Origin: Trichaptum fuscoviolaceum
Lineage: Eukaryota; Basidiomycota; Agaricomycetes; Hymenochaetales; Trichaptaceae
Assembly (NCBI GenBank): GCA_910574455.1
Contig: CAJSYZ010000002.1
Coordinates: forward strand, 335,671 to 399,670
Reading direction: 5' to 3'
Length of the DNA stretch: 64,000 nt
Shown here: piece by piece, positions 1 to 63,952 of the stretch
How the letters are laid out: each line of letters starts with the position of its first letter
How positions within the stretch are numbered: position 1 is the first letter of the stretch
Translations under genes and position numbers: made by a program
The notes under the pieces: generated by a model
The model's input: only the letters and a program-made list of their open reading frames with translations
The model's database searches: none
What the model was told of the DNA's origin: nothing

Positions 1-2134
1 CTTCGCGAGTCTGATCAGATGAAATCCAATACCAAACAACCGTGACAAACCTTCCAAATAGCTACTTGAGGAGGTATCATACCAAACCTGCCCTGCTCTA
101 GAACAGTATCTTTGAGATCGTCACCGTATTCGCAAATGCTAATGTCCACCCGGATGACCTCATTTCGACCAGCGATAGCACACCATAGTACGCGTCCTGA
201 TGGAGGCGAGGATGTCATTAATCTCTGATTCGGCCAGGGTGCCAGTGACTCTTCTCCATCCGTAACTAAGAGAAGATGCAATGACTCTGGTCGAAGATAT
301 TCGGTAAATTCTTCCTCGACCGGCGAGCGTCTATGGAGAAGCTCGGAGATGGTAGTCAAAAAGGCGTCGGAACTTGGGAACGAGATTGCAGGGGATTTGT
401 CCTTGATCGGCCACAATTGAGGATCGTTAATCTTGAGAAAGACGTTCGAGTCATGATGATTGTGATTGAGCGTGTTTAGTACGAACCTTCCACAATTGGC
501 AATATTGATCTCTCAATCCTGATTTTCGAAGGATCTCCTCTCGCAACGCGTAGACTGTCCGATTCTTATACTCACTAACGTCGACTTGGAATAAGCGACT
601 TCGGCCTGGAACACCACACCATGCGAAGCCGTCCTGTTTCGATAATCTCATAAGCTGTATAAAATGATATTGCAGAGTAGAAACAACTTGCCGAAGAAAA
701 GGATGGTCTCCGAGACGATAGATCATCCGCGATTTGTACGAACAAATATATGTGCTCTTTTCGGATTGATTCGTCGAAGAACGTATCTGTGATTGGTGCC
801 ATATCAGCGCTCAAATGTTTAGCGAGCTCTGCGAGGTCCTTGATATTCGACGGAAAGGTCCTTTTCCGAGCACTGTCGTTGACCGGCCAGTATTGGGGAT
901 CTTTGAACTTATGATAAAGGTTAGTTAGAGCATAACTTCGCCTTGATTTGACAAACCTTCCAGATTTCCATATGGTCAGCTTGAACTTGTGCGTCGCGAG
1001 CTATAGCTCTCTTTAATCCGGTGAAATCCTTGCATTTCGCAATGTCTACCTGTAATATCCGGTCCTTGTCCGCAATAACACACCAGATACGCCGCTCCTA
1101 AATTAGGGACGTATTAAAGTTAATAAAGTGACAAAATAGTCGACACATACCGGCACGGATATTGAGCAGAAGGTTTTTCTCCTGCTGTTGATCTTCATGA
1201 CAAAATCAATTGTGTCGGGCCCGTTGAATATTGTCTCCAGTTTCGTTTGTGGGTACAGAAGGTCAGCGATCATGCGAAGGTTGTCATCGTCGATTGAGAT
1301 GTTTTTCATAGAGGATGCACCAGCAGCTGACCATTTGTGTGGCTCTTTCACCTAGACGGACGTGAGCACCAAGTTGATAGCGCAGCTTCTTGTCAACTTA
1401 CCTTCCAGATATCTACCCGGGAGTACGGTATTTTGATTCTGGACTAGAGTCCCCAAAGGTCGGGTCGGGCCCGGCCTTCACCTTTTTTAGCTCTGGCCCG
1501 ACCCTATCGGGCCAGGATTTTTTCCGGGGTGCTAACCCTTGGCCCGACCCTCACCCAGCCTTAGGGTCGGGTCAAAATAAGGTCGGGCTAGGGTTGAGCC
1601 CCTAACCCGGCCCTTGGCCCTAATGTAACATGAATTGTATATAAATTAAACAAATTAAACTCTCAAGGGGCATTATGCAACACATAAGGTGTCTAAATGC
1701 AGTGTCTCACGGCTATTTAGGTCTTGAAAGCCCAAATCGGGTAGTTTAACGTACATGTTAAGGAAGTAGTTAGTAAAACTGCCAGATTTACGGGTCAAAG
1801 TTGTGCACAAAACCGGCCTATCACGTATATTTGTTACCTAAATAGGGTCAAGGGTCGGGTCGGGTTATATAGGGCTAGCTTCCCGGAAAATGCAGCTGGC
1901 CCTTGGCCCGACCCTACTAAGGCATCGTCCGGCCCGGCCCTATTCTGACCCGACCCTAGGGCTTGGGTCGGGCCAGCCCTAGGGTCCAGTGGGCTTGGCC
2001 CAGCCCGCCGGGGACTCTATTCTGGACAAGTCGACGGCAGCTTTCTTCAAGTCGTAAATGATCTCACAATTCGTAGTGTCGACATGCAGCAGCCTATCCT
2101 AGCCAGCGATGGCACACCAGACACGATGTTGCAT
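1..2134 (-). pseudogene. Crinkler-array kinase gene copy A, 5' part, disrupted and cut by the window edge
   Basis: Six of the eight exons seen in the intact paralogues can be placed: 2134-1402 (holding the MITE at 1445-2019), 1351-1151, 1097-957, 907-692, 633-487 and 431-51. They encode four Crinkler-N, ubiquitin-like units, each with a WCAIAGRD-like start and an IWKV-like end, alternating with linker segments that begin xxDPxxWP. The expected kinase exons would lie beyond base 1. Two lesions are visible. A 575 bp MITE sits in exon 1, and a TAG codon follows the WCAIAG motif where paralogues have a sense codon. Removing the MITE plus one 8 bp target duplication leaves exactly 150 nt, the exon 1 length of both intact copies. 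Exon 6 (381 nt) also equals that of the copy at 19.6-22.3 kb. The exon 4 donor appears to be GC. Family role is inferred from known CRN/CR effectors, in which the header precedes a toxic or signalling domain. Confidence 0.8.
1445..2019. mobile_element. hAT-type non-autonomous MITE, 575 bp, inserted in a Crinkler exon
   Basis: Ends are TAGAGTCCCC and its inverse GGGGACTCTA. The 8 bp sequence TTCTGGAC is present on both sides (1437-1444 and 2020-2027). An 8 bp target duplication with a TAGAG-like terminus is typical of hAT elements. The interior has no coding capacity and is rich in GGTCGGG/CCCGACC strings near both ends, probably subterminal transposase-binding repeats. Confidence 0.88.
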
Positions 2135-2649
2135 GGTGTAAGATATGGAGAGGTGGTAGGGAGGAATCAACATGATTCCGAACTGAACTCGACCACTGGC
2201 ACACTAGCAGACTCGTGTGAAACCTGAAATTGAACTAACATTATGTAACTAGATAACGGGCCGAGCTTTGCCAGCAAATCCCTTACTCCCTCACTGGCAG
2301 CCTGCTGCATCATTTGATTCTCCGCATCAATATTTTCCAGGTCAGCGGCGGTTCAAGTTGTTTAGGGGAGGTGTGAAATCACAGGTATCCCACGGCAATT
2401 TAGGGGATACAGTGCCCTTTACTCCCAGTGGGAGTAAGGGAATCAATTTGATTTAATTGAGCGTACCTTTGCTCTTGTGAGTTTCTCCGAGGCACGAATG
2501 TTACAATAGCTGAATCTCGAGAATGATACAGCTCTGCATTGTTCTCTCCACTGCTTTTGTGGTACTTTATTCTACAATAAAGATCTGTCAGGCAACAGCC
2601 CTGTGATAAGGTGGAGAACGGGGTTCCTATGTCTGGCTGGGCAACTAGA
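2135..2649. other. Intergenic, no gene recognised
   Basis: This is upstream of the broken Crinkler copy A. Just upstream of the start it resembles the 5' flank of the copy at 22.3 kb, suggesting duplication included promoter DNA. I see no convincing gene in it. Confidence 0.4.
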
Positions 2650-2815
2650 TTTTAACATACAGATTACCGTGCTACCGCGCAGTACCGCGCAGTACCGCGG
2701 GAAATTACCGTGCAGTTCCGCGCGGTTCCGTCGATTTTACCGCCCACTTCCGCGCCATTACCGTCGATATTACCGCGCAGTACCTTCCACTTTACCGCGC
2801 AGCTAATTTAGACAG
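2650..2815. repeat. Remnant of the giant transposon's terminal repeat block
   Basis: It begins AGATTTTAACATACAG, close to the start of the 5781/19220 inverted repeat. It continues as irregular repeats of TACCGCGCAGTACCGCG, TTCCGCGCCATTACCG and TTTACCGCCCAC, the same words as the block at 18.66-18.93 kb. No second end or gene is attached, so it is a solo or broken end. Confidence 0.7.
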
Positions 2816-3463
2816 TTCCTTGTAAGTAGAGCAGAAATTAGAGAAATAAAACTATTTGATAGCGCACAATACAGCAAGTGTCACAGCTTCATAAATGTAA
2901 TTATCTTGCGAGTGTTATTGTCGAAGCAAAGAGAGCAGAGTGCGGCATGAGATTAACGTCAAGTCGTCGATATCAACAATTCTTTATCTGAGAGTTCAAG
3001 TTGCTAGATATATAAAGTGCTAAGAACCGGCCCTAATTATGGGCACTTATGTTTATGTTGAAGCAGAATACCTGTCACCCAAAATACAGTCAAGAATCAT
3101 CGGATTCAATTTATAATACGTATGGAATATAATGCACATGCTAATCCGGTATTTTAGAGACAGTGAAAGGATGGAGTTATTATTGCGGTTATTATATTTC
3201 GGGAATACCATTAGAAATGTAGTAGATCATCATTGTCGAAGCTTCGAAGTCACTTTCAACTGTCTAGGTACCAGGTATTAAAGCTATCGATTCACTTGTA
3301 AGCGTAGGAGAATTGCCTGATATTATTTTTCGAGGGGTCACGGATATCGAGTTAATATACTACATAGACGCCCATAGATCAAAGCTGTGCTCGCACGCGC
3401 ATACAGATCTCGGTGCGCCGTGTCCTCTCGTCCCTACTCATACAAGTAGCTTCAAGCTCAACT
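2816..3463. other. AT-rich intergenic stretch
   Basis: I found no open reading frame with plausible splice structure, no inverted repeat and no RNA gene. Confidence 0.4.
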
Positions 3464-3918
3464 ATGTCCTCTTCTAAGCAATTCTCTATGCGCTGGAACG
3501 ACAAGAACATGTACAAGAACCACCCGGACGTAAAGACGAAGATCGAGAGAGGATGCAAGGAAGCTGGGGCGTCTCTCAAACGTGCTGGGAAGAATTTTGA
3601 CACCCTCACAATCTTGTATGTTACATTACCCCTCTTTCCTTTCAATCGAGACTCATTAGACTATTAGCAATGGTCCACATGCTTCAAAGTCGGATAAACA
3701 TCCTCATATCACGTTCCGCATATACAAGAATCGAGTTCTAGCTGGATCCGCGCACTTACCGTGTGAAGCAAAGGGCGTTGCAATAGTGCGTTTTACTTCT
3801 ATTAAATGCGTACCATTTGGTCTCATATGTATCTGTGATGCAGGTTGAAGAGTTGACAATAACCGAACCGTATTGGCGGAAGGGGAAGAAGTTAACGTCT
3901 CGCGCGCACAGGGTTTGA
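3464..3918 (+). CDS. Small uncharacterised protein, copy 1 (114 aa, three exons)
   Basis: Exons 3464-3615, 3668-3785 and 3844-3918 join in frame to 114 residues ending at TGA. The introns are about 52 and 58 nt with GTATGT and GTGCGT donors. The protein starts MSSSKQF and is basic. Its central part (PHITFRIYKN, then AGSAHLPC) is shared with the gene at 4700, which has the same first intron position and phase, so the two are a tandem duplicate pair. I recognise no domain, signal peptide or membrane segment. The alternating hydrophobic pattern around HITFRIY suggests a small beta-rich fold, but that is only an impression. The ATG was chosen because the reading opens there and aligns with the length of the second copy. 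Function unknown. Confidence 0.55.
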
Positions 3919-4699
3919 GGGGTTGAGCATGACTACATGGGGCCGTAGGAGATTCACGTACTATTCCACAAAAAAACGGCTGCGTACCTTCCTTTGTTTT
4001 ACCGCTTGCACTTGACTCCTTGTATGTTACCGATTTCCAATGTATGCAGAATTTGTATCAAGAATAAGTATGTATCGATTACATGATGTACCCTTTCTAT
4101 GTGAATTACTCGGATACCTCACTTCCAGCAAGACAAGAAGCTAGACAACGTCTCAAACGTTCAATCGCTTGCGTTGGATCAACCGATCCGGCGTTTAAAT
4201 TCGCATACTGTCACTATTCGCCTCCGCTGTCTAACATTTCAAATTGAGTTAAAAGTCTAATTATGCGACCTTATCTGGACTTGATCTAATCTTGATCTAG
4301 GCACAAATATAGCAGTCCATGCCATTTATGGATACAATATAATGCCATCCTTATTTCAGATTATGTGTGAGTACGCATGTAAGGTAACTAATGCAACTCG
4401 CGTCTTGAAAGTGCAAGCAATTTGTGTTAGAGGCAACACAGGCATGTTGCACAATGAGAATGTTTAGTTTTCACTGCATATATTATTGCTAACGCACATG
4501 GCATGCAACAGCGCGTATGTAGACGTGTTATAGCTCACCGAAGGCATTAGAATCAGTTACGATGATTGTGTGTAGCTGTAAGAACCTTGGGCGAGCTCTT
4601 AAATTATTGTAATGTAAAGATATTTGTGAATGAGTTCGAAGCACGAAGTAGACGCCCGTTGATCAAAACGTGCACAGACTATTCAGCAAGAAGCACTCA
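3919..4699. other. Intergenic between the tandem small genes
   Basis: Nothing recognisable apart from AT-rich sequence. Confidence 0.35.
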
Positions 4700-5220
4700 A
4701 TGACTACACCTAAATCCACACCCGCACTTGTCCCCGCATCTGCTTCGACACCAATGGCAACCCCTGCACCTGTACCTCCTTTCGTCGTGTCTTGGGTTAA
4801 TCCGACAGCGTTCACCAAACCGGAAAAGGCCCATCTCAGGGACGAGGCCGAGTACATCTGTGAGAAAGCTGGAAAAGAGCTCAAGCGTATCGGACAGAAA
4901 TTTGATTCCATAAAAATTGTGTATGTTGTCCCGTTCTTTCATGTCGGCGTTTTTTACTCAGTTCTCAATTAGCGAGGGCTTCCACACATCGAAAAACGGC
5001 CGTCGGGACCACATGACGTTCCGGCTTTACGACGGTTATACGTATATCGGGGCGGCACATCTGCCTAGGCCCCCGAAAGTGGACTGGACAGTCGATGTAC
5101 GTGTGTTTCAATATCTAACTTATGAATATGATGACAGCCAACTTATCTGGTATAATAGCTCCGTCTTTTAACATTGGTAGAACGTGGGAAGGGCCGTAAA
5201 CCCAAGCAGGTCTTGAAGGA
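4700..5220 (+). CDS. Small uncharacterised protein, copy 2 (3' end uncertain)
   Basis: Exon 4700-4920 joins exon 4973-5096 in frame with the same intron phase as the paralogue at 3464. The shared core reads HMTFRLYDGY then GAAHLPRP. The N-terminus differs: a Ser/Thr/Pro/Ala-rich stretch of about 35 residues precedes a segment matching the first copy (KAGKELKRIGQKFD against EAGASLKRAGKNFD). A third exon should begin after the GTACGT donor at 5097. A TAG acceptor near 5180 exists, but the reading after it stops quickly and does not clearly match copy 1, so the C-terminus may be lost. No known family is recognised. Confidence 0.45.
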
Positions 5221-5780
5221 TTCGAACGAAAGGTGGTGAGGGCGATATGTAAAGAACGATTTGTATACAATAAAAAAAATATGTCAATAGTTTCAATCCA
5301 AGTTATGCCTTTTATCTCCGGAGGATTTTTTAAATCGGGTTTCACAGATTGACTAAGATTCTTACCTTTGAGTGTGCATACTCCATCGACACCAATCCGC
5401 CCTAACAAACGTTTAGTAGCAACATCCCCCTCCAGCAAAAGCGTATCGGCTATAGTTGCGAAAGCAATCGGTCGACGTACTGGGCAATGGATTGGCCGAT
5501 GCGCACTTGGATCCGCATGTCAATGTTAACTCCGTGCTCCCGTATTTCAAATTAACTCAAAAGACTAATTACATTATTAGATCGAATCTATGCAAGTCCC
5601 GGAACTCGATTAAGGCACCGAAATTGCTTTATTTATTTCGTACCGTATGATGCATTACTGAATTCGGCTACGACCGTCGAACGGAACCATTCGTATTGTT
5701 GGGTCGTTGGTTAGTTCTATTGGCGCCATTTCAAACGCGTTACTCCGGTAGCGAGCATTGCAGAACGTAGCACTATTTGC
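5221..5780. other. Intergenic to the left edge of the giant transposon
   Basis: Short open frames only, with no supporting splice or homology pattern. This is the left flank of the insertion. Confidence 0.35.
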
Positions 5781-5847
5781 GGCCTACAGATTTTAACATG
5801 CAGGTTCCGCGCGCGGTAAATGGTAAATCGATCGATTTACCGCCCAT
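5781..5847 (+). repeat. Left terminal inverted repeat of the giant transposon
   Basis: It pairs with 19154-19220 with a single mismatch. It contains the perfect 20 bp palindrome GGTAAATCGATCGATTTACC, a likely protein-binding site. Confidence 0.88.
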
Positions 5848-6530
5848 TACAGCGCGTGACCCATATGTCACCAGTGTATGCCGTTAGCGCTAACTTGTCC
5901 CCTTTCCAACTCTTCTGCTATGAAACATTCTACGTTTCTTTTCCGCGTCTATTCCTAGTCATTACAATCTCGTGAGGCACTCTTTATTTATATTCACAGC
6001 TCGATTACCTAGATAATCAGGCGGTATTCTGATTCAGGTCTGACCACCTCGAATCTGCTTTGCTGTTTAATTCGACATCAACTGTTACCCATACCATATT
6101 ATGGATTTACTCGCCGTATGTAATCTACAAAATTATCTTCCATACATGTCGCTATTCCATGCATTTCAGCCACGACTAACATTCGGGAATTGCCGGTATC
6201 CTGCTTTCGTTCGATGCCAATTACGGGAATGGCCGCTATGACTTAAGTCTCCTCGACTTCCAGTGTTAACCCTGGCGACGGATTCTGTCTCCAGTAGCTT
6301 TAGCATTGTTTAAATTGGATGGACCTGAATACTTGCCTCCCATTCCAAGGAACGTATGTGTACCCCCCGGTCCTGGCCTAGGTGCCTTGCCCCCCTAAAT
6401 TCCTCGTTGGAGTAAGTGTTATAATTCTAACACCGAACGAGGCTCTTCTACATGCCGCTCTATTACATTACTTTACATTTACACAGAGCATAGATCATAC
6501 ATCAATATATAAATACCATCCCTGGATCTT
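5848..6530. other. Left subterminal non-coding region of the giant transposon
   Basis: It lies between the left TIR and the 3' end of the transposase-like gene. Unlike the right end it lacks the TTACCG repeat block. No gene seen. Confidence 0.45.
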
Positions 6531-9500
6531 TTACTTTTCTTCCGCCGCCTTCTTGCTCCTGTTTGCCATACGAGGTTTCGGCGGTTTCAAAGTTAACTTG
6601 TGTTTTTTATATGAGCCTATACTGAATATTTCGCTCTTCTGTTTGATAGACAGGTCAGCATATTGACCCTTTACAAATATCAGTCATCACTTACCTTCCT
6701 ATCCTCACTCGGACAGTCGGACGATTTGATCCAGCTTTCCTTAGTATTAAGCCAAGGATTCCAGTCTCCTTCGTGAGCACCTAGGGATCGTCCCCACACA
6801 TAATGACTCGCTTTGCCGGCCCTATGTGAGACCTCGAACATTCGTCGTTCGAGAAAAGAAATGCATTCCGCGTCAACATCGATGGTCGTCGGGTCCGACT
6901 CCACGATTATATCGAATGCTTCTTCTAATGTCTTCGTCTTGCGACGGTGTGCGAGAACAATCGTCTTGGCATGAGTATGAGCGGGCATTTCGAACCAGTC
7001 CATTGCTTCTATCATCGGCACCCCATCCGCGGTCTTGTAAGGTAGGTTCTTACGCATCCAACAGGCAATGTGAAGCTCGTCATCAGCTGGTAGAATTCTA
7101 ATATCCATAACCTCTGATCTTTCCTGCAACGTTCTCATAATTGGATCAGAATATTTGTCGTTCGCATGCTTCGCGAGATACCTAATAACCGGAAACCTGC
7201 TTTCTATTTTCCCGGCACGGTATGTTTCCAGGATATCCTTAGGTTTACAAATCACCAGATATCGCAGATCTTGGAGGCTTGGTCGAAGAATCGCATCGAT
7301 GTCGCCTACTCTGTCTATTTCATTGTAGTCCGCTATAGGATAATCAACATGGCTTGCGAGCGTAAACATTCCGAGCTACATTCCAAGTCATTAGCGCGTT
7401 TAAGACATGTTAGCGATTTGTTCTTACGCGAGTCTGTCTCCGCATCTTAGTATTTTGCCATAGCTCATCCCGAATGTGTTCCAACCCCACGCGTACTAGG
7501 CCATCCACAGGAAATTCGACGTTGGAAAGTCGCCAATGCTTGTCTTCGAATTCGGAAAGTCGCCATATCTTGATTATGTACAACTGTTCCTTTGCGCGTG
7601 GAGCAGGGCAATCGATTACTCTTCCAGGGTACCAATACTTAGGTCCGATACGAACTAAGACACCCAGTCCGGGTCTGGAATGATACAATCAGATGCTAAA
7701 TACGGATCGGTGCCCGGAAAAGCAACATACCGAATTCTTTTCTTTATGGGAATCCCGCCTTTCAAGTCTCTTTCCAACTTCTTTTCAACCCATCTACAGA
7801 ATTAAGTCGTATGGTATAATGACATACGTAAGAATCTGGCTTACTCGTTCCTCTGCGCGTTTTGCTGACATAAGTGACAATAAAAGGGGTCATTCGGCTT
7901 CAGAAACGCTGTAAAGCCTCGAAACTGGCATGCTTGATGTGACCAATTTTCGCAATCCTTGCATTGAATCAGATCTTCCTGGAATCCGTCTGCCCCGTGT
8001 AGCGGTCGGTCTTCCACAATGCCGCATCTACATGTTATTCGGAATAAACCATGGTCACTATCAGCCCCATCAGCCTGATCTTCGATCGCTGTTGCTGTAT
8101 GCTCGTCCTTCGTTGCACCAGTTCCGTCTTCTTGTTCGCCGTCGTCTGTGGAACCGTCTGCATCTATGTCTGCGTCTTCATCGTCTCGTTCTTCACTTTC
8201 AAAATCATTGTCACCCTTCTCATCCTTGAGGTCGTCTTCCTCCAGATTGTGGCCGACGTCCGTAATAACACTGCTCCCGCCATTGAGCTTATCTTTCACG
8301 AGACCTTCGTCCCTTGCATCACGGTTGCCGGACTTTGTACTCTTTCCCACTCTATTAGTCCTTTTACCGTACTTCCTTATCCTCCCGGGCGGATGATTTG
8401 AGCGAGTTTTTGTCGCCGGGACTAATGATTCACGTTGAACAGGCGATGGCGACGTTCGATGGATCTGTAAGTCTTCGACACTTGCATCTTTGTTGTTGCG
8501 GTGGCGTCCGCGTTTTCGACCCGTGGGGAGTCCGACTGCAGTGGACTTGGCTCCGGTCTCCGATGACACCAACTTCGGAGTGACAGGTGAGTCAAGCTGC
8601 ACTGGCGGCGTCAGCGCTTGAGGGTTCTGAGTGACTTCTGCGTCTGTAACTTTAATCTTACGCGGGCGCCCGCGTTTTCGGCCCGTGGGGGGTTCGATTG
8701 GGGTGTTTGTCACTGCAGTCTTTGCTGGAAGGATACCTTTGGCTACGCGTGCTTCGGTGGTTGACTGTGTCAGAATGGCAGTCGGCGCCAGGGTTTGTCT
8801 CTTCACGCTCGAACGGGTGATGCGCGGAGTTACTGGTTTCCGCGCTTGCTGATCCGCTACCTTTTCTGTTTTCGTACCAGCAGATCGAGTTCGTACCTGA
8901 GAATCTAGTGATTTGCCGGAAGCCACCGTAGTCGTCTGCGGCGTGTCCTGGCGTGTTTGCGCAGTATCAACTTCGTCATGGGTAAAGGAAGGCGATCGTG
9001 CACTTTCGGTGACAGCATTTCTCGTTGTCGAACGCGTCGTGCGTGGGGACGCGGATGGGGCTGTCTTCGGAGTCGGATCTATTGTCTGGAATGCGTTCGT
9101 CTCATTCGCTGTTCGTCGAGCTCTATGGGAGGGCGACGTCACCGGCGACGAGAAGACCGAGTTCTTCTTTTGTGCTCGCGGTGTCGATGTCTTCACCGGT
9201 GATGAGGATACGACCTTCCTCTTCCGCGCTCTCGGTGTAGGTGTCTTCACCGGTGACGAGGAGCCTAACGAAGGCTTTTGGGACGGTGTTGCCTCAAGAT
9301 CAACTTCCATATATACACGCTTGAAGCGCGCTTTCTTTTTCGGTCGTGAGTCGATGTCTTCGTCCTTTTCTAACCGATGCTTCAAAATGATCGGAACAAT
9401 GTCGTCCGCGTGACCCTCGTACTCGTATTCCTTAGTGTCAGGCTCCCTGTCTCCTTTCCGACTACCTAACCGCTCACTTGGCTTTGCTTCGCGCCATAGA

Positions 9501-12500
9501 GGATCCTCGATGGTAAATGACGGAGGATCTTTAGACGAAGATACGTACGTCATTGAGACTTTGTGTATGGCAAGGAGCTCGGACTGTGTCCATCGGAGTA
9601 AATCTTCCTGTCCGCGCACTCCTTCGCGCAAATGATAGACTACTGTGATTGTCCTCTCTGCCGCAGTTGGCCGATGTTGTCCCGCAACAACAGTCTTGAT
9701 ACTATTGTGTTCCTTTGCCTTTGTCAAGACACCACCGTTCGCCAGGTCATCGTATAGATAACACCTCTTCAGAGGATCTGCAACGTATGCGAAAAAATGA
9801 CTGCGCTCGTTGCTGTGGACCGCGCGTCCTACAACATCGTAATGACATGTCGTCCGTCTACCGTCCTTATTCGTGCCAGGCAATTCTATCACGGCTGGAA
9901 AATCCCACATCGGCTCATCAGAGAAGGGAACGGGCACCGGGGGTCGGTCATCTTTCCCGTCAGATGTCATCTCTTTGCCATTCTTGTATGGTCGCGGAAG
10001 ATTAATTCGAAGGCAAATTGGGTGAGACACCATGGCCGTGCAAACTAGAACGTCGTCGCCTCGGTGGTTGCAGAAAGGTCTCCAGCATTCCGAGACATTT
10101 TCCGGTTCCTTTCGCACGCGGAAAAGATCTCTAACAAAGGCAAGTACACTCCCGTGGTGTTTGGCGTGCGCTTCTAAGTTGAGATCGATGTACCTCCGTT
10201 GACTAGACCGCTTCGTAACAAGGACGTGCCGATTGGTACCATTCCCATTACAGTATCGTACAGTGACTTCGTGTCCAAAAAAATATGTCTCTGCTTCATA
10301 AGACATGATCGGCTTCGATCTGCGTGCACATGCCTGACAAAGCCATAACTAGAAGTTGATTAGTACAAGCACCGGGGAAGTTAGTAGAAAATACTTACAA
10401 ATAATGAATCTTGATCTGTTAAAGACGTAATGATTTTACAGTCCAATAAAGAACTTCGGAATGAGTCACGGCTCATGTCATTCATCGTCAAGGCGTACGT
10501 CTGCGACACTTCTTCACTTTCAAGAAGGTTGAGTCGGGTCTGCAGGACTCCGAACAGGCTATCCATAACGGAACCAGGTGTAATAATGGACAGGCATTGT
10601 TCCAGGGACAGAGGATCACGCTGTGCTACTCGGAAGAGGAGCTCCAAAGAGGTGTCCATCCAACATGAGTTATCTTTATATCTGTAGCTTGCTAAGTCGG
10701 CTGACTTTCGACCCCTTAACAAAGCAGTGAGATCGTCTAGTGACGTGGGAAGGATTCGTCTAACGAGAAGCTTATGGACCCTGTCAGGTGGACGACCATC
10801 GTTAGGTGTTTGATGACTCCTTCTCTTGATTGCTTCTTGAGTTCGACTGGGATGTGTACTGCCATAAACGTCTACGAATGATTTCCAGGGTTCTGCCTGG
10901 CCGTATCTGATTTTGAAACCACCTTAATGACATATGAGTTCGATGAACGTAAGAATGTGGATCAAGTACGCACATAATACAGCCGTATCCAATGCCTGCA
11001 TAGCGTTGGCGAAGCGATACAGACCATCTAATCCGTCAATGACGCTGTGATCTCGGCCAACCGACGTGTAAATGGAGTAGTGGAACGATTCCTCCGGGTT
11101 CGTAGACGCGGGTAACGACTCCCATAACTCCTGGTCCATCGTACGATATGCAGCAAATATCATTTGTGCGACTTTAGGTCTCATCCACCACTCGAGCCAA
11201 TTATGAATAGCGGGGAATGCCTGAAGTAAATCGTCCGCAGCAGATTTGAACAAAGGAATAGTAGGGGCGTCGTGAAGCGCCTTTACTAGCTCCATGAAAC
11301 TGTCCTCAAGTCCTACGGGAACCAGTGCCTTTGTCTTCCGTATTCTCGCTACTTGCTCATTGAAATGTTGGTTACAACCTTTCAGTAGAGCTTCGGCAGC
11401 TTCCCTTAACTCATCCGGCGATCGGGTGTCTGTCGCCAACTCGGTGAAGAACTCAATGAAAGCCTTGATGAAGCCTTGCCGCTCGGCTTCACTGAAATCC
11501 ATAACCTGCATTACAGATGAGCAGGAACCAATGATTATCATAATTGACTTTGACGTACCATGAGGAAGTATTTTTCCAAAAAAGGAATATCGTAGTCTGC
11601 GCAGATTCGGTGGACCACTCTAAAGTATGTCTTGAAGTGACACTTGTAATGCGCAATCGTCTGCCCATTCATGTAGGACATGAGAGCGGGCATCCAACGT
11701 CGAACAATAGGAGTGTATAGAGTTGTTGCCATGAGTACCGCATTCAACTCCCTGAAGTACTTGTGAGCGGCGTCAGAAACTGCTCCATTGACCGGTTCAG
11801 ACAAGTTGGAATCACACATCGATCGGTATATCTGAGTGGCCATGAATTCTGTTTGCACCGTGATAACGATGATATCCGCAAAAGTGGAATCAATGATGAA
11901 GTTCGGGTGCGTTTCAACAAACTCGGCAAACGGTCCGAACAGTCCCTCCTCCTTTGACTTCCTGTTCTTTTCCTTTTTCATCTCGTACAATAGACGATCA
12001 CGATTAATTAAGATGCCAGAGATGTTCATGGCAGTGGTGAGTTCGCCTTCTGGACCGGGGACACCAGAGATATAAGATGAAGGCGTTGCAGTGGGATTCA
12101 GTTTGCTTAATGACTTTAGATCGTGCTTCTGTTTCCGTGTGAGATGAAGGGGGGGAGGTCGGACATGCTGATGGAATTTAGTACTGTCGAATGAGACACC
12201 GTTGGAGGATTCACGAAACTCGTGTACCACATCGCATGATATGTGGACTACTTTGACACCGCAGTGACAACGTTGAGTGAGTTGACGCGCACGACCCTCC
12301 TTCTTCGTTTGCGGTCGATCGACCCACTTGCAATGGCCAGTGGAGCAAGCCATCACCCCGAGGCAGATACGCCTGGATACCTGGACGGATGCACTACTAG
12401 TCTCTGTCTTAGCGCTTTTCCGGTGGCGTCCTCCAGGATAATCCATTGCCCAGTGCACCATGAATGCCTCTTTTCGTTTTAACGATATTGCGGCAATCTC

Positions 12501-14052
12501 ATCCCAAGTGAAGTGTAATGAAGCAGAGCCGTCATGCCATTCGTCGATGAGCTTAACATCTGTGTCTGGCTGAACGGAAGATTTAGGCTCATTTTCTTGA
12601 GGTACGAGAGCCTCCTTGTTTGAAGTGGATGGTGATTGTCCTACAGCGTCGATGTCCCGAAAAGCAGGGACATGGTCGGTGGTACTGGGCCGGCGTAGGT
12701 GCTGTATAGCAGATAGCATCTGCAACTGTTGACTTAGTAGAGTGTGAAGAACGCCATCCGATTTTGTCATCTGTTCGGCCATGACATGTTGACCGTCGGC
12801 AAGTCTTCGAACGGTGGCATCTGTCTTTGTTTGTTGGTCTATGACGGCCTTCATCTCATGAGTCATCACCGCCTGTTGCGCGAACACGGTCCTAATAGCT
12901 CCATCCGTCTTCGATTGCTGTTCTGCCAATCCCTTGACAAGCTCATCCAGCTTGACTTGCTTTTCCGCCACTACCTCCATAGCGCCACCAACCCTAGCAG
13001 ATAGTTGGTCGACCATACGTGGAAGGTGGAGAGACCTATTATCAAACGCAACTGGCTGAACATTCGGATAGAGAAACTGTCGCATTGGATCCTGGTCCAT
13101 GACATATTGTATGGAAGGCTGATAAGGCGCAGGCGGCTCTCGCCAGTGACGCATAGACGAGGTCTGGACATCTTGTGCAGAGTGACCGCCATTAAAGTAC
13201 TGCGCAAACCAAGAATTCGATAATCCGTTACCACCGACCCGGTTTGAATGCGGCTGCACAGACGTACTAAGGAAATACAGTGAGACTCAGTTCCTTTAGT
13301 AACAATCGGGCAACTCACTATGCAAATCCATTAGCGGCGTCATTGGCGTACGGCTGATTCGGCTGTCCGTAAACGCTGTGAACCGATGTCGAGTGCGTCG
13401 GGTTCGCTTGGACGGCACCATTAATCGGAAGATGTGATAGAGGCTGGTCCGGCTCTTGAGCCGGTCCATGCATAGATAAATTGAAGCCACCGAAGTGAGG
13501 CTGATTCGACGGTCCAGAGCCGATGGGAGCGGAAGTCAAATGGGACTGAATCGACTGACCAGCACTGTTGAATGGAAGAATCGAAGTCGACTGACCCGAC
13601 TTTTGATACACATATGAGCTGGCACCCTTGAGTTGTGGCTGATCCAACTGGCCGGAATCGTTGGAGATAAATGTCGGTTGTTGCACATTTGTCTGTCCAG
13701 TCTCAGGGACAAGGTGCGGAAGGTGCGGAAGACCAAACTGTCCATAGGAAGCATTGGATGTGAGTGGCGATTGCCTCTGATTCAAATGTTGTACTGGCAA
13801 TTGGACGTGCGTGCCAGATGACGCAACTGCGGAGTCGGTGACCGGATAGGCAACCTCAGGTGCTGAAAACGATCCATGAAGGAGACGACCGCTAGGCGTC
13901 GTCAATTCAACCGTCGGAGGTGGGACAAACGCAGGCGACCTGTGTTTAACGCGTCAGTGAGCTACAATGCTTGACAATGCAAGCCAACACAAAACGTACG
14001 GGATGAATGATTCTTGAGTTTGTCGAGCTAGGAATGTCAATGAGTACGGAAT
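6531..14052 (-). CDS. Giant multidomain transposase-like protein: GCM zinc + DDE core + USP-like peptidase + AT-hooks + PHD + Tudor/PWWP-like
   Basis: Ten exons join in phase: 14052-14000, 13939-13319, 13266-11559, 11505-10974, 10922-10399, 10348-7845, 7793-7731, 7674-7428, 7375-6695 and 6638-6531. They give at least 2,346 aa; the true start codon, upstream of 14052, is unresolved. In order: a Gln/Ser/Pro-rich tail (about 1-225); a GCM-type zinc domain (about 515-595, Cys in CLGVMAC and CHCG, His in HQHVRPPP); a DDE-like core (FIIDSTF near 680, NPEESFHY near 930); a ubiquitin-specific-peptidase-like domain with Cys in NSCWMDTSLELLF (near 1060) and His in SHFFAYVADP (near 1330); two AT-hook-like motifs (GRKRGRPRK, GRKRGRHRN); an acidic run; a PHD finger (CRCG, CKDC, HQAC, CHLC); then GVLVRIGPKYWYPGRVID, a Tudor/PWWP-like strand pattern. 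The 63 nt exon at 7793-7731 links the PHD and Tudor parts. It lies within the TIRs and is the presumed transposase. Domain calls are by motif recognition only. Confidence 0.8.
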
Positions 14053-15718
14053 CTAACCGATAAGAAAATGTCGAATTCACGTACCAGTTTCGTTGTTGTT
14101 GGAGACTGGCAGCTTCATCAGATTTTCGAGTTCCCAGATCGCTTCATTGTTGAGGCCGTTCTCCTAATTGACGAATTCAGTAAGGGTTCAAAAGCATACG
14201 AAGCAGAATCTATACCATCGCAAAGCGCCATTCAACGCTGCGGGAGTCGACCAAAGAAAGATGGTTTCACGCCAGTTGCGAGGTCAATTAGCGCAATGGG
14301 CACAGCGGGCCATGGGGTAAAAATTTTATCGCAAAAAAATAATAACCCGACGTTATCTCTGCCATGGGGAGCATGTCACACCCATGACATCGGAGATCTG
14401 AGCGGCCGATGCGCTGGATTCGATAGCTACGAATAACTGAGTACCGCGCCTGTACGCAAAATACGTATCGTGAATTCACTGAATATGTTTTGTTCAAAGA
14501 TTACTCACCAAATTAACCAGAAGTCAAGAAATATCAAGTTGAACCACCAAAGTTCTGCATAGCTTGAGATCTCGATTGCGACGTCACGCATGGTCAGACA
14601 AATTCGGATGTTCTAACTTCATGTACATTGTCCTTGTCTCGTATGCGATAAGGTTACCGTCCTACCGCAATACGAACGGAATAAGCTTAAATTAAAATTG
14701 AAATAAGCGTCAGAATTTAAACTTGACAAACAGAATAAGGGCGACTAACCGTCGTCGGCGACAATATTGATTACGTCATACAAGCTCACTCCGAACTTGA
14801 AATCGGACTTCGGCATTCAAGTTACTGCGGTTAGTACATCTTGCGCTCTCAGTTTCATAAGATGTACTCACATGCACCACCCCAGTAATGAGTCAAGTAA
14901 AAAGAATATAATGACAAGGACTAGGTCAGTATACAGGATAATGCATGCCGCAGCTGTCGACTGAACCGGCCAGCCACGGTACACTGCTCCATAAAAACGA
15001 TTTACTTACACGTGATCATGGAGATATACTTATGATCCGAAGACAGGGTCGTTGCAAATCTGCGGAAGCAAATTGGCGGAAGAGTCAACTATCGATATGT
15101 ACGCACAAACGCTATAGCGTTCCTTAACATGTTTACCTATGGACCGTCCCGGGAACGCCTTATCCGAGTGGATGTAGGTGCATACTGAGCGACAAGAAAT
15201 GAATTAGATCATGTAATCAATCGAACAAAAACGGCTTGCCATTGTGGAGTTCGAAAATAGTCCCAATGTAGATAGTCGACGAAGAGGAATGAAGGAAAAC
15301 GAGATGACATGGTCATGATGGTGGTATAAGAGCAAGGAGGAAACGTGTGGCATGAAGAGGGTTCGCTATAAGTACGGACACTTTTACCCTGAGAAGATGG
15401 AATAACATACATACTGCTAAATTTGGTATAAGCGCTCTACCTTTTGCCACGTCGAAATAGCCGACGGCAGTGGCCGAGTGCCTGATTTGACGGAATTAAA
15501 TGCATCTCAGTAGTATCTGATCTCGCACGCCATGACGACTCCCGGCCTATCCAGTATCACAGGCTGTTAGAATGTCGTCTGCCCATGAATAAGCACAAAG
15601 ATTGCCCAAGTCTCTTTTAAACTTCATCAAGCTATATGCCATCGAGCAGAGCGCAAGGTGCGTAATATCCGCTGTTTAATAGGAAGTAACCGAATTTGAA
15701 ATGGGGATCGACGCTTAG
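14053..15718. promoter_or_regulatory. Central spacer and presumed bidirectional promoter region of the giant transposon
   Basis: About 1.6 kb between the heads of the two divergent genes. It probably holds the first exon(s) of the transposase-like gene: a GTACGT donor lies at about 14083, with in-frame ATG possibilities upstream that could not be settled. No TATA box or operator could be assigned with confidence. Confidence 0.4.
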
Positions 15719-18515
15719 ATGCCGAGGCCATACAAGAGATCGAAGATTGCGCGATCCTTCGTTGACTTGCAAGCACGAGACAGAGATGACCAAAACAGCG
15801 AAAGGAGCTCCTCAGAAGAAGATATAGATGGCTTCTTGGTCGAGGATGAACTCGAAGGAGAAGAGAATGTTGAACGCAACTTGCGTGTACATCCCCCACT
15901 CACAGCTGCCGAATCCGAGCACAATCAAGCCCTGGCATGCCACTTCCAAGAGAGAGCACGATGGAGTGAGCGCAACGGAAGACACCAGGATCACAAGGAA
16001 TCTGCATTGCAGACTAATGAAGGACGGATACACAAACGTCCATTCGAACGTAACAATACATTAGATCTGGATATTTCAGGTAAAAACACAAAGTTTTTCC
16101 TCTTACCGACGAAAGTACGTTGACTTACTATTCTTCATTGTCCATATATTACACTGAGCTCTATTTCTGACAGATTGGACAAGAAATTCAAACGGGAAAG
16201 GACTTACAGTCGACATCTGCCATGTCATGCAAAGTTCTTGCATCGTCCCGTTTACTAGGACGCATTTACATCCTTTCACCCAGTAAGACTAGTGCCCAAA
16301 ATCAAGTGCGACGCCTAACCCACGGTGGACTGGAGCCAAACCAACTGTCTGAAATTTGCGAGAACGAAATGTCTATCGTCATACGTCATGCGGATACGCT
16401 GGGCATATGCAACGTATTGTTTACACCCAATCGATGGGTACGCATTCAATGCGGACAATTCGCCAGCAAGCTAGGCTATGTGTTGGACGTAAAGGCTCTC
16501 GACCTACTCCGGGTTGCAGTTATAACCGGCGATGTTTACGATGAAGACGGCAACGTAATACGTGATTCCAAATTGACGGTCGACGCTGCGAAAGACTTGC
16601 GCTTTACAGAAGGAGCAAATTGGTTACTTGACGAAACTGACATCTGGTCTGAGCTAAGGGGACCACGTATCCCATCCGCTGTGACGATTATTAGCGTCTA
16701 CGGAATACACGCAGCGAGACAGGAAGAACCTCACGCATATGAAGTGGAGCTGTTCACTAGACTCAGCTTTGATACTAGAAGGACGACGAATCGTTCGTTT
16801 CTGCAAACCGGTGATAATGTCCGGGTAGTTAATGGCGACGTTAGCGGTATGGTTGGGGTGGTACACGAGATATCGAACGACATAGTGAGGCTTGATCCTA
16901 CTCCATCTGAATGTGGGCCGTGTCCTCCGCACTTATGGGTTCCAGTTGGTGACGTAGAGAGGCTGTTCGAGGTCGGGAGACCTATTATCGTCAGAATCGG
17001 GAGACATGCCAATCGAATTGGCTATATAGTGTCGACGAATGGCTCCGATCTTACTGTTCTGGACCGAGGCGCTCAGACACAAGTATGTGCTTAGACCGAT
17101 AACGTAATGTTGATTCACCTTTCAACGCAGAGAATCCTAGTTCGTTGTTCGAAAAGCGTTTGTCCAGACGTACAGCTCGAGTGCTGATTTAACCAGGATC
17201 CTGAATTATAAACATGGCGCATTTGAGGGCCGTCTAGTGTATATAATCGACCTCGGTCTTGTTGGACGCATTCTAGATGTTACGAGAGAAGGGAATGTCA
17301 AACTCGACCTACCTACAACAAAAAGTCGGAGGAACATGCTATTCCGCCCATCAGAAGTTGTTGATACGTGAGCCATAGATCTCAACACTGAATTCAATAC
17401 ACTGATGACGTTGAAGGGAATCTTACCAATGCCTCAATGGATCCCAGTTTCCTGACACTCAACGCATAGACAGAGCGCTCTCCAACTACGTTGATCAGAG
17501 GTCACTGCATGGTATGACGAAGGTTAACTTACGTACTTCAGTCACTGGCGACCATACCCCTTGCGCTATGACTTCCTTCCATTATGGTATACACGCTGAT
17601 TTGAAGGCTGGAACGAGCGAATGTCCCACATCCAGCTCCAGTTTGATCGCTTCCCGTGCGGACGAGGTTTTTGACTCCGGCGTATTGTATCAGGAAGTAT
17701 TTGTCCTTAAAAATCTCAAGAAGTTTGGCCGTCTACTCGCCGTGAATGGAAGTTCTCATGCAATAGTACTTCTTGACAATGACATGCAACCACAAGCCTT
17801 CACTTTGAACGAAGTATTTTCTCCGTGAGCGTCCCAGCTATACACAGGATTCAGCGTTTGTTAACATATTGTACAGGAGAACGTTGCTTTGTTTGGACAA
17901 CTCTATTGCTCAAGACATTGATGATATTATGTACATGTATCTCCGCAGAAGTGGGAAGTCAGCATTGCCGAACTGGACTTTTGAACAGCCATCTGTCGTA
18001 AAGCTCGATGTCCAAGGTTAGTGGTACATTACTCAATTTATACATGTATATCTAATGTCTAGTCAGCTCCTACTTGCACCTGGTTTTTAAGTCCATCGAT
18101 TCAAAAGCTTCTTGGTCAGTATCGCATTTTCTTCAGGTTTGTGGACTCCTGTATAAGTCCGGGAAACGTAGCTCGAATGCCAGCTTGGACTACTGCGGAT
18201 ACGTCAATCAGGTTTTCCAACGAACGGAATTTAGGGAGCAACATCGAAGTTTATCTTACATTCAAAACACGAGATGCAAAGGAGTTCACGTGCTGGGTGT
18301 TACTTCAGAACATAATGCACTTTCTCCCTAAGACGGTCGACAATGCTCTTGTCGTTAGCGGTCCTGATATTGGGAGAATTCTTCCCGTTGAGAGAACGGA
18401 AAAAGGTAGAAAAGGTAGGGATCCATGTATTCTTCTGCGAGAATCAGGTAGCGGACGAAACAAAAAACTTGTGAAATATGGGTTGTCGGAAGTCACTAAA
18501 GTACAGAGACTATGA
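15719..18515 (+). CDS. Spt5/NusG-like multi-KOW protein carried by the transposon
   Basis: Exons 15719-16114, 16174-17082, 17141-17367, 17474-17824 and 17877-18016, plus one or more ending at TGA 18515, give roughly 800 aa; the join near 18080-18140 is not settled. The N-terminus is basic, then acidic (SSSEEDIDGFLVEDELEGEE), as in Spt5. A diverged NGN-like segment follows (LLPTK at the exon 1 end, LLGRIYILSPS in exon 2). Next come several KOW-like motifs: RIQCGQFASKLGYVLDV, GDNVRVVNGDVSGMVGVVH, then GLVGRILDVTREGNVKLD, and one near the C-terminus (VVSGPDIGRILPVERT). Cellular Spt5 binds RNA polymerase II as an elongation factor with Spt4. Here the gene sits inside a transposon, head-to-head with the transposase-like gene, so it is more likely an element-encoded mimic than the essential host copy. 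There is no C-terminal heptad-like repeat. Whether it acts in transcription, silencing escape or transposition is unknown. Confidence 0.78.
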
Positions 18516-18659
18516 CCTAAGTGTGTCAATATTGTGTGAGTGGCTATTCTCCTCATCGCTTTCATATGTATTCTGAATTTCTCTTGACTTAAATCTACTG
18601 CACGGAACTTTCGAACTTTACCGCCCATCTACCGCAAATTCTCAGGCACAATTCAGGGT

Positions 18660-18935
18660 CGTGCAAGATTAACATGCAGTTCCGCGCCATTACCGTCGAC
18701 TTTACCGCCCACTTCCGCGCCATTACCGTCGACTTTACCGCCCACTTCCGCGCCATTACCGTGCATTACCGTTGATTTTACCATGCTACCGTTGGTTTTA
18801 CCATGCCTACCGTTGATTTTACCATGCCTACCGTTGATTTTACCATGACTTCCGCGCTATTTCACGAACTTTACCGCTCTTCCATTCAACTACCGCGGAC
18901 ATTTACCGCGCCTACCATACAGATTACCGCCCTTC
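18660..18935 (+). repeat. Right subterminal tandem repeat block of the giant transposon
   Basis: Repeats of about 32 bp (TTCCGCGCCATTACCGTCGA then CTTTACCGCCCA) occur in tandem. They are followed by units of about 20 bp (CCTACCGTTGATTTTACCATG-like) and scattered TACCGCG words. The block starts with TTAACATGCAG, an internal echo of the TIR. Similar arrays occur at 2650 and, inverted, at 56.8-56.93 kb. They are likely transposase-binding sites. Confidence 0.8.
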
Positions 18936-19153
18936 TTGTTTCTAACTGTATGCCTCTTTGACATGTTTTATTCCAGTAAATTCGGAATAATACTGAAAAA
19001 AATATATCTTGTAGCATACACCCATGGAACCGTGTACGTATTTTTTTTGTATTTTTAAAAGTTACAATAACCCGTAGAACCCTCACCGAAGAGGAGAGGG
19101 AGACGTGAGAAAGTGGAAGGAACTGCGCGGAAGTACTCGCGGTAATGCTCACT

Positions 19154-19220
19154 ATGGGCGGTAAATCGATCGATTTACCGTTTACCGCGCGCGGAACCTG
19201 CATGTTAAAATCTGTAGGCC
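19154..19220 (-). repeat. Right terminal inverted repeat of the giant transposon
   Basis: Inverse of 5781-5847 with one mismatch. It includes the same 20 bp GGTAAATCGATCGATTTACC palindrome. Confidence 0.88.
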
Positions 19221-19630
19221 CTGTCTGGCTTATGTGATGCCGAGGCTAAGAGCCCTTCATCTAAGTCAACGGTGACTGTCAACCCGTTTCCTTATCCCCT
19301 TTCTCGACTCAGGGTACCCGAAATCGGTATTTAGTAAAATGGTTATTGCGAGAAGAGATACTGTACGGCTCATTGTTCTCTTACGTATTTAATGCACAAC
19401 TGCCAACTGGTCACAGTTCATCAGGAGAATGAACAAGTTGCGCGTGCGAGTTAAACTTTACCATGTCCAATGTATGCAGTGTTGATAACGAGAACAATAA
19501 AGCAGAGAGCAATACAATGGTCAATTGTCTAATCCCATTGCTCTCCGACTATCATTAACTATCATTTAGAATCATTCAGCCGGAGATTTCGGAGAATGTG
19601 TTGGCAGCGCATGCACAGTGTAACTCTTTT
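19221..19630. other. Intergenic between the transposon and Crinkler copy B
   Basis: No gene seen; it should hold the 3' untranslated region of the kinase gene. Confidence 0.35.
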
Positions 19631-22272
19631 TTACAGTGTCTGAAGACTAGAACTTCCGTTTCTTTCGTCGGATTTCGTGTAGGCTGCTATTTGCTGAAGA
19701 GCATCCTGCATACTCGGTCGCGATTCCGGCCTTCTATCAGTGATTTTCGCGCAAAGATTGCTCAGAAACTTGCGATCTTTATTGAGAGGACAACGATCAC
19801 AGAGCTCTTGAATGAACTTTCCAGCTGCCCAAGCATCAGCGCGCATCGGATTGTAGGCTTTTCGCCCGACCTCAGGAGCAGTGCATCCTTTTGTACCTCG
19901 ATATCCACTCACAATCTCGTCCGCGGTGTCCAATATCTCAGAAAGGTCGTAGTCAATAATCCAGACTCTCTTCGAGTCATCGACGAGGATATGGCTTAGC
20001 TTCAAATCCATATGAACAACACGCTTCGAGTGTAGGAATGCGACGCCTTCAAAGATTTGCTGGACGATTAGGAGCAAATCTTCAGACAAGTGTGCATAGT
20101 CGCGAACAGCAGTTCCCAAGTAACGCGTCAACAGAAGGGCACCCTCCCGTAGCTCATGAACAATGATGTCTGAGGGCGCATGATTATGGGTCGAGTCGAA
20201 ATTCAAGAGATACCGTAGTACCTTAATCTCGTCGCATCGACCGGGACGAAGGTACTTAAGGATGTAGCGTTCTCCCTCCAATGTGAAGACATCGCCCACG
20301 TGATCTCTCTTGAGAAAGTTCGTTTTTAATTCACAGTAATGCCGCAGATAGGAAAATGAAAAACATACGTCAACATGCTGAAATATGTCCTCCACAAAAC
20401 CTAGTTCCTTCAGGGCCTGACGAATATCATCTCGTTCTGCTAACGGATCGCTCTGAGTCGAATCTGAAGATGATGACGATGATGACGACGAAGAACTTCG
20501 TTCGTTGAGTATCTTCATAATAACATAAACCTTGTCGTTGTCTAGCTCTCCTCCAAGTTCCTCATCCATGTCAGAACTGCCGTAAAGTTTGACTGAGATC
20601 TCTTGCAGATCCACTTCTGTTCTTGGAACTCTCAGTCTACCGGTCACTATGCTCTCGACGGACCAGTTGTCAGGAGCGGAAATCTGGAGATTAATGAGAA
20701 ACAAGCGATGTGTATACCAGAGAATACGCACTTTCCACATCTGAGCAAAGCTGCTTCGTATCCCAAGTCTGCCTTCGGATACAAGTTTGTTTCTCATATC
20801 GCGAACAAACTTACATTTGCTGACATCAATTCGAAGGACTTGATCTCGACCTGCGATCGCACACCAAATGTAGCGCTCCGGTGCTGTCTGAAGGTCTGAA
20901 TATTGAACGGAGATTGATTTGGATCGCTTGTATTCTGACGAAAGCACCAAAACGAGTTCCAGGGTGTCTTGGTCAAAGTCATCACTTAGCACTACATCAA
21001 GAGGTGTAGAGTCGCCTATGACAACGGACATGGCGTTGATACACGTATCTGAGAGCTCTATGTCGACCGAGTGCGTATCGCGATTGATTGGCCAATTATG
21101 GGGATCCTTCACCTACGTTCAGGTAAGGTTATGTCGTGTTAAAAGACAAAGCAAATGACACACCTTTCTAATCTCAGAGCCTTGTTTCCTATACCCTGAT
21201 TTGCGCAGTACGTCGTTCTCCAGTTCAGATGCGGATTGACATCTTCTGACGTCGACCTGGAATAAACGGCTTCGACCTGGAATAGCGCACCAGGCAAGGC
21301 GTCTCTAAACAAACGCGGGAAAGATGTCAGTTACTTCCAGTTAGCTAGCCTGCGAGATTGTCACGCACATGCGTAGAGGACGATGTCGAACCAGAGTTGG
21401 AGAAGGAGAGTTTCCTTTTTCCCGAAACCAAGCCAACCAGATATACGCTGTCCTTCCTGATGGCATCGTCGAACATCGCTGTTGCGTCTATGGTTGTACC
21501 GAGGTCCAGATGGTCGGCAATTTCTTCCAAGTTCTCCTTTCCAGACGGAATACGTCTACGGATCCTGTCGTTGATTGGCCATTGCCGTGACTCTTTCAAC
21601 TACAATCCAAATTAACACAGTTTTCGCCTTCACTTGGTCCAGCTCACCTTCCACAAATCTAAGTCATCGACAGGTATGTCAGAGTCACGCGCAACAGCGT
21701 TCCTAAGACCTTGTACATTCCTGCACTTTGCAACATCAACTTGAAATATCTGGTCCGTTCCCGCAATGGCACACCAGATACAGCGTGCCTGTCAACCATA
21801 CCATATAGTTTTAGCAATTTCGAAATGCGGCGATGCAGTACAGGATCACTTGCTGGTACTGAAACGGAAGGCAAATTTCTCCTCTTGCTGTTAATTTTCA
21901 TGATGAGTTCGATGTCATTTTCGCTGGTATCTCCGACAAAAATCTTGTCCAATGCTTTATGGGGGTATAGGAGTTCTGCAATGTTACGGAGATCGTCGTC
22001 GTCTTCCGAAATGCGTTTCAGTGAAGCAGCATCTGTGACAGGGAATTTTCTTGGATCCTTGACCTATAGAAAGCGGAATGAGCCCGAGACCACACCGTGG
22101 TGTAACTTTCTTGGCCTTTTACCTTCCAAATGTCTACCCGTACGTACGGAATTTTGATTCGGGACAAATCTACTGCAGCTTTCCTTAGATCGTAGACGAG
22201 GTTACAGTTCGTAATGTCGACGTGCAGTAGTCTGTCCTTTCCAGCGATGGCGCACGAGACGCGTCGGTCCAT
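19631..22272 (-). CDS. Four tandem Crinkler-N (ubiquitin-like) units fused to a divergent protein kinase, copy B (748 aa)
   Basis: Eight exons join in frame: 22272-22123, 22063-21854, 21788-21648, 21599-21369, 21304-21164, 21112-20732, 20683-20369 and 20308-19631. Four header units of about 47-50 aa recur. They start WCAIAG (SCAIAG in the first, WCAIPG in the third) and run to WKV, and each is followed by a 67-105 aa linker with a conserved hydrophobic end such as KDSVYLVGLVSG. This alternation matches the header-plus-linker plan of Crinkler effectors. A poly-Ser run precedes the kinase. Kinase landmarks are YILKYL (beta-3 Lys), DEIKVLRYL (helix C Glu), HMDLKLSHIL (HRD loop, with His where the Mg-binding Asn is usual), IIDYDLSE (DYD for DFG) and TAPEVGRK (APE). 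The end of exon 2 uses a GC donor. No signal peptide is seen. An intracellular ubiquitin-like signalling or defence role is inferred. Confidence 0.85.
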
Positions 22273-56492: not shown

Positions 56493-56930
56493 CTACAGAT
56501 TTTAACATGCAGGTTCCGCGCGCGGTAAATGGTAAATCGATCGATTTACCGCCCATTACCGCGAGTACTTCCGCGCAGTTCCTCCCACTTTCCCACGTCT
56601 CCCCCTCATCTTCGGAAAGGCTCTACGGGTTATTGTAAGTTTTTAAAAATGAAAAAAATATGTTCATGGTTCCATGGGTGTATGCAACAAGATATATTTT
56701 TCTCAGTAATATTCCGAATTTATTGGAATCAAACATGTCAAAGAGGCATACAGTTAGAAACAAGAAGTTCAAAGGGAGCGCGGTAATCTGTACGGTAGGC
56801 GCGGTAAATGTCCGCGGTAGTTGAATGGAACGGCGGTAAAATTGTTGAAATAGCACGGAAGTCATGGTAAAATCAACGGTAGGCATGGTAAATCCAACGG
56901 TAGCATGGTAAAACCAACGGTAATCGGCCT
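56493..56930 (+). repeat. Solo right end of the giant transposon family
   Basis: From CTACAGATTTTAACATGCAGG onward it matches, over about 440 bp, the inverse of 18.77-19.22 kb: TIR, the GGTAAATCGATCGATTTACC palindrome, the GGTTCCATGGGTGTATGC stretch, and the subterminal AACGGTAGGCATGGTAAA repeats. The match stops at about 56927, next to the TIR of the 56932-58065 element. That insertion probably truncated it. Confidence 0.85.
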
Positions 56931-56931
56931 G

Positions 56932-58065: not shown

Positions 58066-58067
58066 AC

Positions 58068-63863: not shown

Positions 63864-63952
63864 CGCGGGTCGGCGGTACGGGTGCGGGGGTAGAAGTAAA
63901 GAGCGTGAGGGTGTCGAGTCCGAGCGGCGGTGAGCCAGGACTTTTGACCTAA

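Follow-up and report, generated by a model that had tools for sequence, protein, structure and literature searches.

Mutator-like elements (MULEs) with Ulp1 proteases are known in plants. According to a survey of MULEs (PMC6446971), these elements can have 9-bp target-site duplications (TSDs), and accessory domains occur as well: PHD fingers in Rehavkus, SET in Phytophthora, OTU in a cnidarian element. TET/JBP genes are common to Kyakuja, Zisupton, Plavaka, Helitron and other fungal transposons (Kojima 2025, PMC12730594), and had suggested common anti-silencing tools among such elements. KDZ transposons of the Kyakuja type are described with a 7-bp TSD and CA..TG ends, without terminal inverted repeats (TIRs) (Kojima, PMC12730594). 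A Helitron of Pleurotus ostreatus captured the genes capA and capB, reported without conserved domains (Castanera et al., PMC4289320). RfaH activates xenogenes that NusG helps to silence, and some plasmids have NusG paralogues in long tra operons (PMC7593976); in S. pombe, Spt5 restrains heterochromatin via its repeat domain (PMC10659198). Here we analyzed a stretch of 64,000 nucleotides from the fungus Trichaptum fuscoviolaceum (contig CAJSYZ010000002.1, positions 335,671 to 399,670; hereafter the window). We lean towards the reading that a 16,583-bp insertion in the window carries an open Spt5-like gene together with a likely MULE-type transposase gene (TP), and that the Spt5-like protein is the element's own elongation factor.

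The transposed unit runs from an A end at 2639 to a B end at 19221 and has inverted-repeat ends. We observed a perfect 9-bp duplication, TGTCTGGCT, on either side of it (2630..2638 and 19222..19230), placed by A-B pairing and by an end-plus-duplication search. In that search, which was unguided and allowed duplications of 8-10 bp (1500-5700 vs 18600-19900), A2639/B19221 ranked first with 12/16 end bases alike, compared to 9 for the runner-up. The exact A end (GGGCAACTAGATTTTAACATACAG) occupies 2639-2662. A first-pass annotation had instead proposed a single 13.4-kb element between two copies of a 67-bp inverted repeat, at 5781 and 19220. The repeat is real and belongs to a family: its left copy had 27 matches across the 12 contigs (59.1 Mb) of the genome, and three of these, the copy itself among them, lie in the window; 11/27, again counting the left copy, were 100% identical over 67 bp. 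The flanks of the 5781/19220 pair, in contrast, differ (CACTATTTG vs TGTCTGGCT) and form no TSD. Because the duplication fits A2639/B19221 and not 5781/19220, the unit measures 16,583 bp.

Wherever both ends were found, the 67-bp repeat (the B end) was partnered with the distinct A end. We examined 15 A-B pairs, 14 from 3-kb loci plus the window. Nine had a perfect 9-bp duplication, the window unit among them; one had an 8/9 duplication, L007 fitted solely as a 10-bp duplication, and four near-identical copies (L024-L027) had no duplication. The A-B unit shows the MULE combination of TIRs with a target duplication of 8-11 bp, usually 9. It does not resemble KDZ elements of the Kyakuja type, as it has TIRs and a 9-bp TSD, and no KDZ match was listed inside it.

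The Spt5-like gene (15719..18515, plus strand) lies in the right-hand part of the unit. Its last exon is kept at C9:4254567, C12:449304, C5:4442391 and, interrupted, C2:499276-503026. The C9 and C12 copies (L005 and L003) have both ends and a perfect duplication, and at C5:4442391 the outer A end was not found. Because these small relatives elsewhere keep its last exon, the window gene lies inside a mobile A-B unit. The A arm (2639..3263, plus strand), with ACCGCG-rich subterminal repeats, was 96-99% identical in the five other copies whose alignment covered almost all of it. The B arm (18530..19221, minus strand; B end 19154-19220 plus an outer C) was 93-98% identical in copies aligned whole-length and 80-92% in several shorter copies.

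Interrupted members of the A-B family were also seen. A second small element, with its B end at 56490, is broken by a Ty3/gypsy-like retrotransposon (window 56490-64000; C2:392160-401241) whose gag- and pol-like frames, judged by eye, span 58738-63998 on the minus strand; the A arm of this element is located past the window edge. At C12:2621779-2634359, a small A-B element is apparently split by an 11.3-kb insertion, with an overlap of ~11 bp at the break.

Both divergent genes of the earlier description are open, each splicing without an internal stop. The six Spt5-like exons (15719-16114, 16174-17082, 17168-17367, 17417-17824, 17877-18016 and 18067-18515) encode 833 aa. The noted resemblance to Spt5 reflects true kinship: a profile of the window protein and two paralogues matched human SPT5 214-505 (E 6.7e-15), showing the NGN and KOW homology of the Spt5/NusG family. 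The window protein alone matched KOW2_Spt5 at E 3.8e-6, slightly short of the Pfam cut-off. By eye, no C-terminal repeat array was visible in the 833-aa translation, and for this reason we treat the protein as an Spt5-like paralogue rather than Spt5 itself. Protein-database searches with a preliminary splice of the protein and with alignment A4 gave no Spt5-like homologue at E<=0.001 among the 7,988 and 7,995 candidates scored, those sharing most words with the query; with only these scored, an absence of database homologues is not established.

We then counted Spt5-like loci across the genome. One protein query returned 57 matches and a second one 67; these became 68 loci, window included, after grouping and after dropping ten rows of the first query (five window exon rows and five small-element rows; 47/57 used). 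We observed that 57/68 loci lay within 10 kb of a KDZ, Plavaka-type, Helitron or TP gene (KDZ core 16, Plavaka-type 15, Helitron_like_N domain 25, TP 1), whereas 1000 random placements averaged 2.63 and never exceeded 9. At 6 kb the count was 46/68 (random mean 1.63, maximum 7). For C6, C10 and C11, the null model took one third of the remaining length each as an estimate. The reference sets were 61 KDZ loci (115 matches, hand-collapsed), 18/20 Plavaka-type rows (two second-exon rows dropped) and 27/27 Helitron matches; three TET/JBP loci were excluded from the count. One locus was verified as Plavaka (PF18759, E 8.7e-17) and another as KDZ (PF18758, E 8.2e-34; CxC2, E 1.1e-22). Some copies share 99.7-99.8% identity over 7.8-8.9 kb and are hence recent.

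As controls, none of the 68 loci lay within 10 kb of 123 other listed Plavaka loci (the best 123 of 834 candidates scored; random mean 2.91), and one lay within 10 kb of 16 UCH loci (28 matches, hand-collapsed; random mean 0.39). Given these two controls, the Spt5-like loci are not merely in transposon-rich DNA. Since the 123 other listed Plavaka loci have no Spt5-like neighbor, the gene is carried by one particular Plavaka lineage. Viewed from the transposon side, an Spt5-like locus lay within 20 kb of 15/18 Plavaka-type query loci and 23/27 Helitron loci. These data show that Spt5-like genes are a transposon accessory in this genome. The idea behind the first-pass annotation has a wider reach than it supposed: at many sites of the genome, an Spt5-like gene adjoins a KDZ, Plavaka or Helitron gene.

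A multi-copy Helitron-type unit on C4, C1 and C8 (e.g. C4:3547938-3561149) has two Spt5-like segments ~13 kb apart, on opposite strands and around the Helitron_like_N domain. Each of the three TET/JBP matches in the genome (C3:5436268, C8:4246 and C9:1760512) has a near-identical variant A-B repeat (L026, L025 and L024, respectively) at a distance of ~9.3 kb, apparently in a larger duplicated block.

TP occupies 6531..13938 on the minus strand, where nine exons, from 13938 to 6531, splice to an uninterrupted frame of 2,328 aa, not counting a possible exon 1 at 14118-14081. The domains listed in the first-pass annotation stood to different degrees. The GCM domain was recovered as a fold match of the homologue P0001. 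The PHD finger was recovered by profile (PF00628 in 7/13 homologues at E<=0.05; the window protein fell below the Pfam cut-off), and the PHD region matched PHD-containing PDB chains at E values down to 9.1e-5. The DDE core is probably IS256/MULE-like; its middle, barely probed, gave no clear fold match. The peptidase appears as motifs: the window TP has a USP-type Cys box and a His box with an aromatic gatekeeper (DNSCWMDTSLELL and SHFFAY...YDD), the gatekeeper idea following PMC7391069. One of six peptidase fragments matched Peptidase_C98 weakly (E 0.15), and in a second scan none of six proteins, the window fragment included, gave such a match. We considered a VTD deubiquitinase, a group with an Asp-x-His active site (PMC9741609), and set it aside: the acidic residue of TP trails the His at a distance, and a USP-like order was preferred. 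Judged from these motifs and profiles, ubiquitin removal by the peptidase and chromatin reading by the PHD finger are predictions.

The left 67-bp repeat is an internal B end (5780..5854, plus strand). It begins with an outer C, is identical to small-element B ends over ~74 bp and then diverges; the TP stop codon is 0.7 kb further inward. On one side TP is flanked by a B end that matches small-element B ends exactly, and from this we infer that TP would be the transposase that cuts the A/B ends. Between the A arm and this internal B end, six-frame reading found two small related frames, G1 and G2 (3368..5171, plus strand), with no Pfam match. At loci on C1 and C2, a G2 relative and the N-terminus of an Spt5-like gene with an internal deletion are ~1 kb apart, and TP does not lie between them. 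The two loci share 99.8% identity over 6 kb, and short stretches of them align to the window to the left and to the right of the TP block, the alignment on the right being weak (E 3.5e-4). Because C1 and C2 have the G2 relative and the Spt5-like gene without TP in between, TP is possibly a second element, nested within a G-Spt5 element; loss of TP at C1/C2 is the alternative.

We give an even chance to the history in which an A-B Spt5/G element and TP, with ends of the same family, share a locus but not a past, TP having inserted and then been truncated. The family-identical outer end at 5780 and the arrangement at C1/C2 favor it, as does the lack of a conserved gene pair: an Spt5-like locus lies within 20 kb at 1/7 TP loci, the window, leaving 6/7 without one. 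Against it, we found no second CACTATTTG within one mismatch across 5900-20000, and end and flank searches did not find a right end and duplication of the TP module, which tells against our favored reading too. The C1/C2 loci have also diverged, and with the Spt5-like gene there internally deleted, TP could have been lost instead. A DNA query with the 13.4-kb stretch produced no listed match at other places for 5858-18124; the search scored 33/34 candidates and its output lacked the window's own full match, so long copies may be missed. For TP copy number the protein search is better evidence: it recovered the window itself, and the closest other TP had ~50% identity. Separately, at C3:5.22-5.53 Mb, TP paralogues and relatives of the small G gene recur in the same order three times, 38-45 kb apart, which suggests large repeats.

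We think it unlikely that TP is a host or domesticated chromatin protein next to which a small element landed, leaving the 5781 repeat as its stump. In favor of this origin, domain order is similar at the paralogues L057 and L067, and L068 preserves the portion that follows the first DDE motif; searches for TIRs and TSDs at these three loci gave nothing, or short, apparently chance-like matches. An internal B end merely 0.7 kb from the TP stop codon speaks against this origin, as does, more weakly, the lack of a close second TP copy that would mark a stable host gene family.

Gene capture by Helitrons is known in fungi (PMC4289320), and the Spt5-like genes could be host genes captured repeatedly by chance, with no advantage to the elements. 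We consider this improbable. Chance capture does not readily account for 57/68 loci near genes of three transposon superfamilies or TP. Transposon-adjacent Spt5-like loci also often have open frames of at least 300 aa at similar spacing. A single 13.4-kb B-B transposon, for all that near-identical 67-bp repeats bracket two open divergent genes, is very improbable, because its ends lack the duplication seen at A2639/B19221 and the repeat pair is not kept around other copies: the sole other inward-facing pair (27 B ends, pairs within 40 kb) is 28.9 kb apart and comes from two A-B elements whose B ends have their own A ends (L005, L018). The single-element reading thus fails the check that the first-pass annotation had set for it.

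Several results weigh against our favored reading of the unit and its Spt5-like gene. Pfam scans found no MULE transposase profile and no UCH/USP domain in TP or its 13 homologues, and for want of a MULE match we go no further than the label MULE-like. At the three TP paralogue loci, no TIR or TSD was convincing and both Spt5-like and G genes were absent within 10 kb, and neither the DNA nor the protein search listed a close second TP copy. An Spt5-like locus lies within 20 kb of a minority of KDZ loci (17/61), and in a first count just 3 of 38 loci were at most 5 kb away from a KDZ core. Many of the Spt5-like matches on the KDZ side are weak (E 2e-8 to 3e-5). The random null treats recent copies as independent, and the classes (KDZ, Plavaka, TET/JBP, Helitron) were picked successively rather than in advance. 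Finally, S. pombe Spt5 exerts its heterochromatin action by way of C-terminal repeats, of which none are visible in the Spt5-like protein.

Because 57/68 Spt5-like loci adjoin known or putative machinery genes of unrelated transposon kinds, it is likely, by analogy, that these elements bring their own elongation factor to keep their own genes expressed. The Spt5-like protein would join RNA polymerase II on element genes, favoring elongation over silencing, and would help the polymerase through those that are long or silenced. It might supplement the host's Spt5 on transcripts of the element or compete with it, in the way that RfaH does with NusG on horizontally acquired operons. The TP module may have arrived as a nested copy in the G-Spt5 element and have since lost its other end. 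The TP peptidase might strip ubiquitin or SUMO while its PHD finger reads histone tails, so that the transposase is protected or aimed. The toolkit of the element would then comprise elongation plus, if the motifs are right, ubiquitin/SUMO removal and histone reading.

A wider proposal is possible, and we hold it only tentatively: four unrelated classes of mushroom transposons would share a mobile Spt5 paralogue, a eukaryotic counterpart of RfaH passed between elements, which would drive RNA polymerase II across the silenced genes of these elements; in one class it would travel alongside a transposase with a ubiquitin-/SUMO-protease and a histone reader of its own. To our knowledge, mobile DNA with its own elongation factor is known from bacteria only. 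If true, this would be a eukaryotic case, and a second common tool beside TET/JBP, acting on elongation instead of methylation, with which transposons contest silencing at the transcription step. The pattern is open to immediate testing in public genomes.

The A-B unit is flanked by genes that look related to each other, at 15-1351 and 19631-21112, both on the minus strand. The second encodes a protein-kinase domain (E 1.2e-18), and the N-terminal segment common to both may resemble Crinkler headers.

Among the papers listed in literature searches we found, at the level of titles and abstract openings, no transposon-borne Spt5-like genes and no TP architecture, most subscription journals lying outside that scope, and the main text of PMC12730594 has no occurrence of spt5, elongation, ubiquitin, PHD, Mutator or GCM. 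Compared to the MULEs, which are IS256-related, the window unit is alike in its TIRs, 9-bp TSD, WRKY/GCM-type zinc domain and probable IS256-like core; it is unlike them in that TP joins USP-like peptidase boxes and a PHD finger in one Agaricomycetes protein, with no Pfam MULE match. The capA and capB genes likewise lie beside RepHel in a mushroom, but they were described without conserved domains; they could be Spt5-like relatives. TET/JBP offers the parallel of one accessory family, plausibly anti-silencing, in unrelated transposons including KDZ, Plavaka and Helitron, whereas the gene in the window is a relative of Spt5 and not a dioxygenase. RfaH and the plasmid NusG paralogues are also specialized NusG/Spt5 paralogues, partly on mobile DNA, that activate long genes otherwise silenced; the predicted Spt5-like protein differs in being eukaryotic and transposon-borne.

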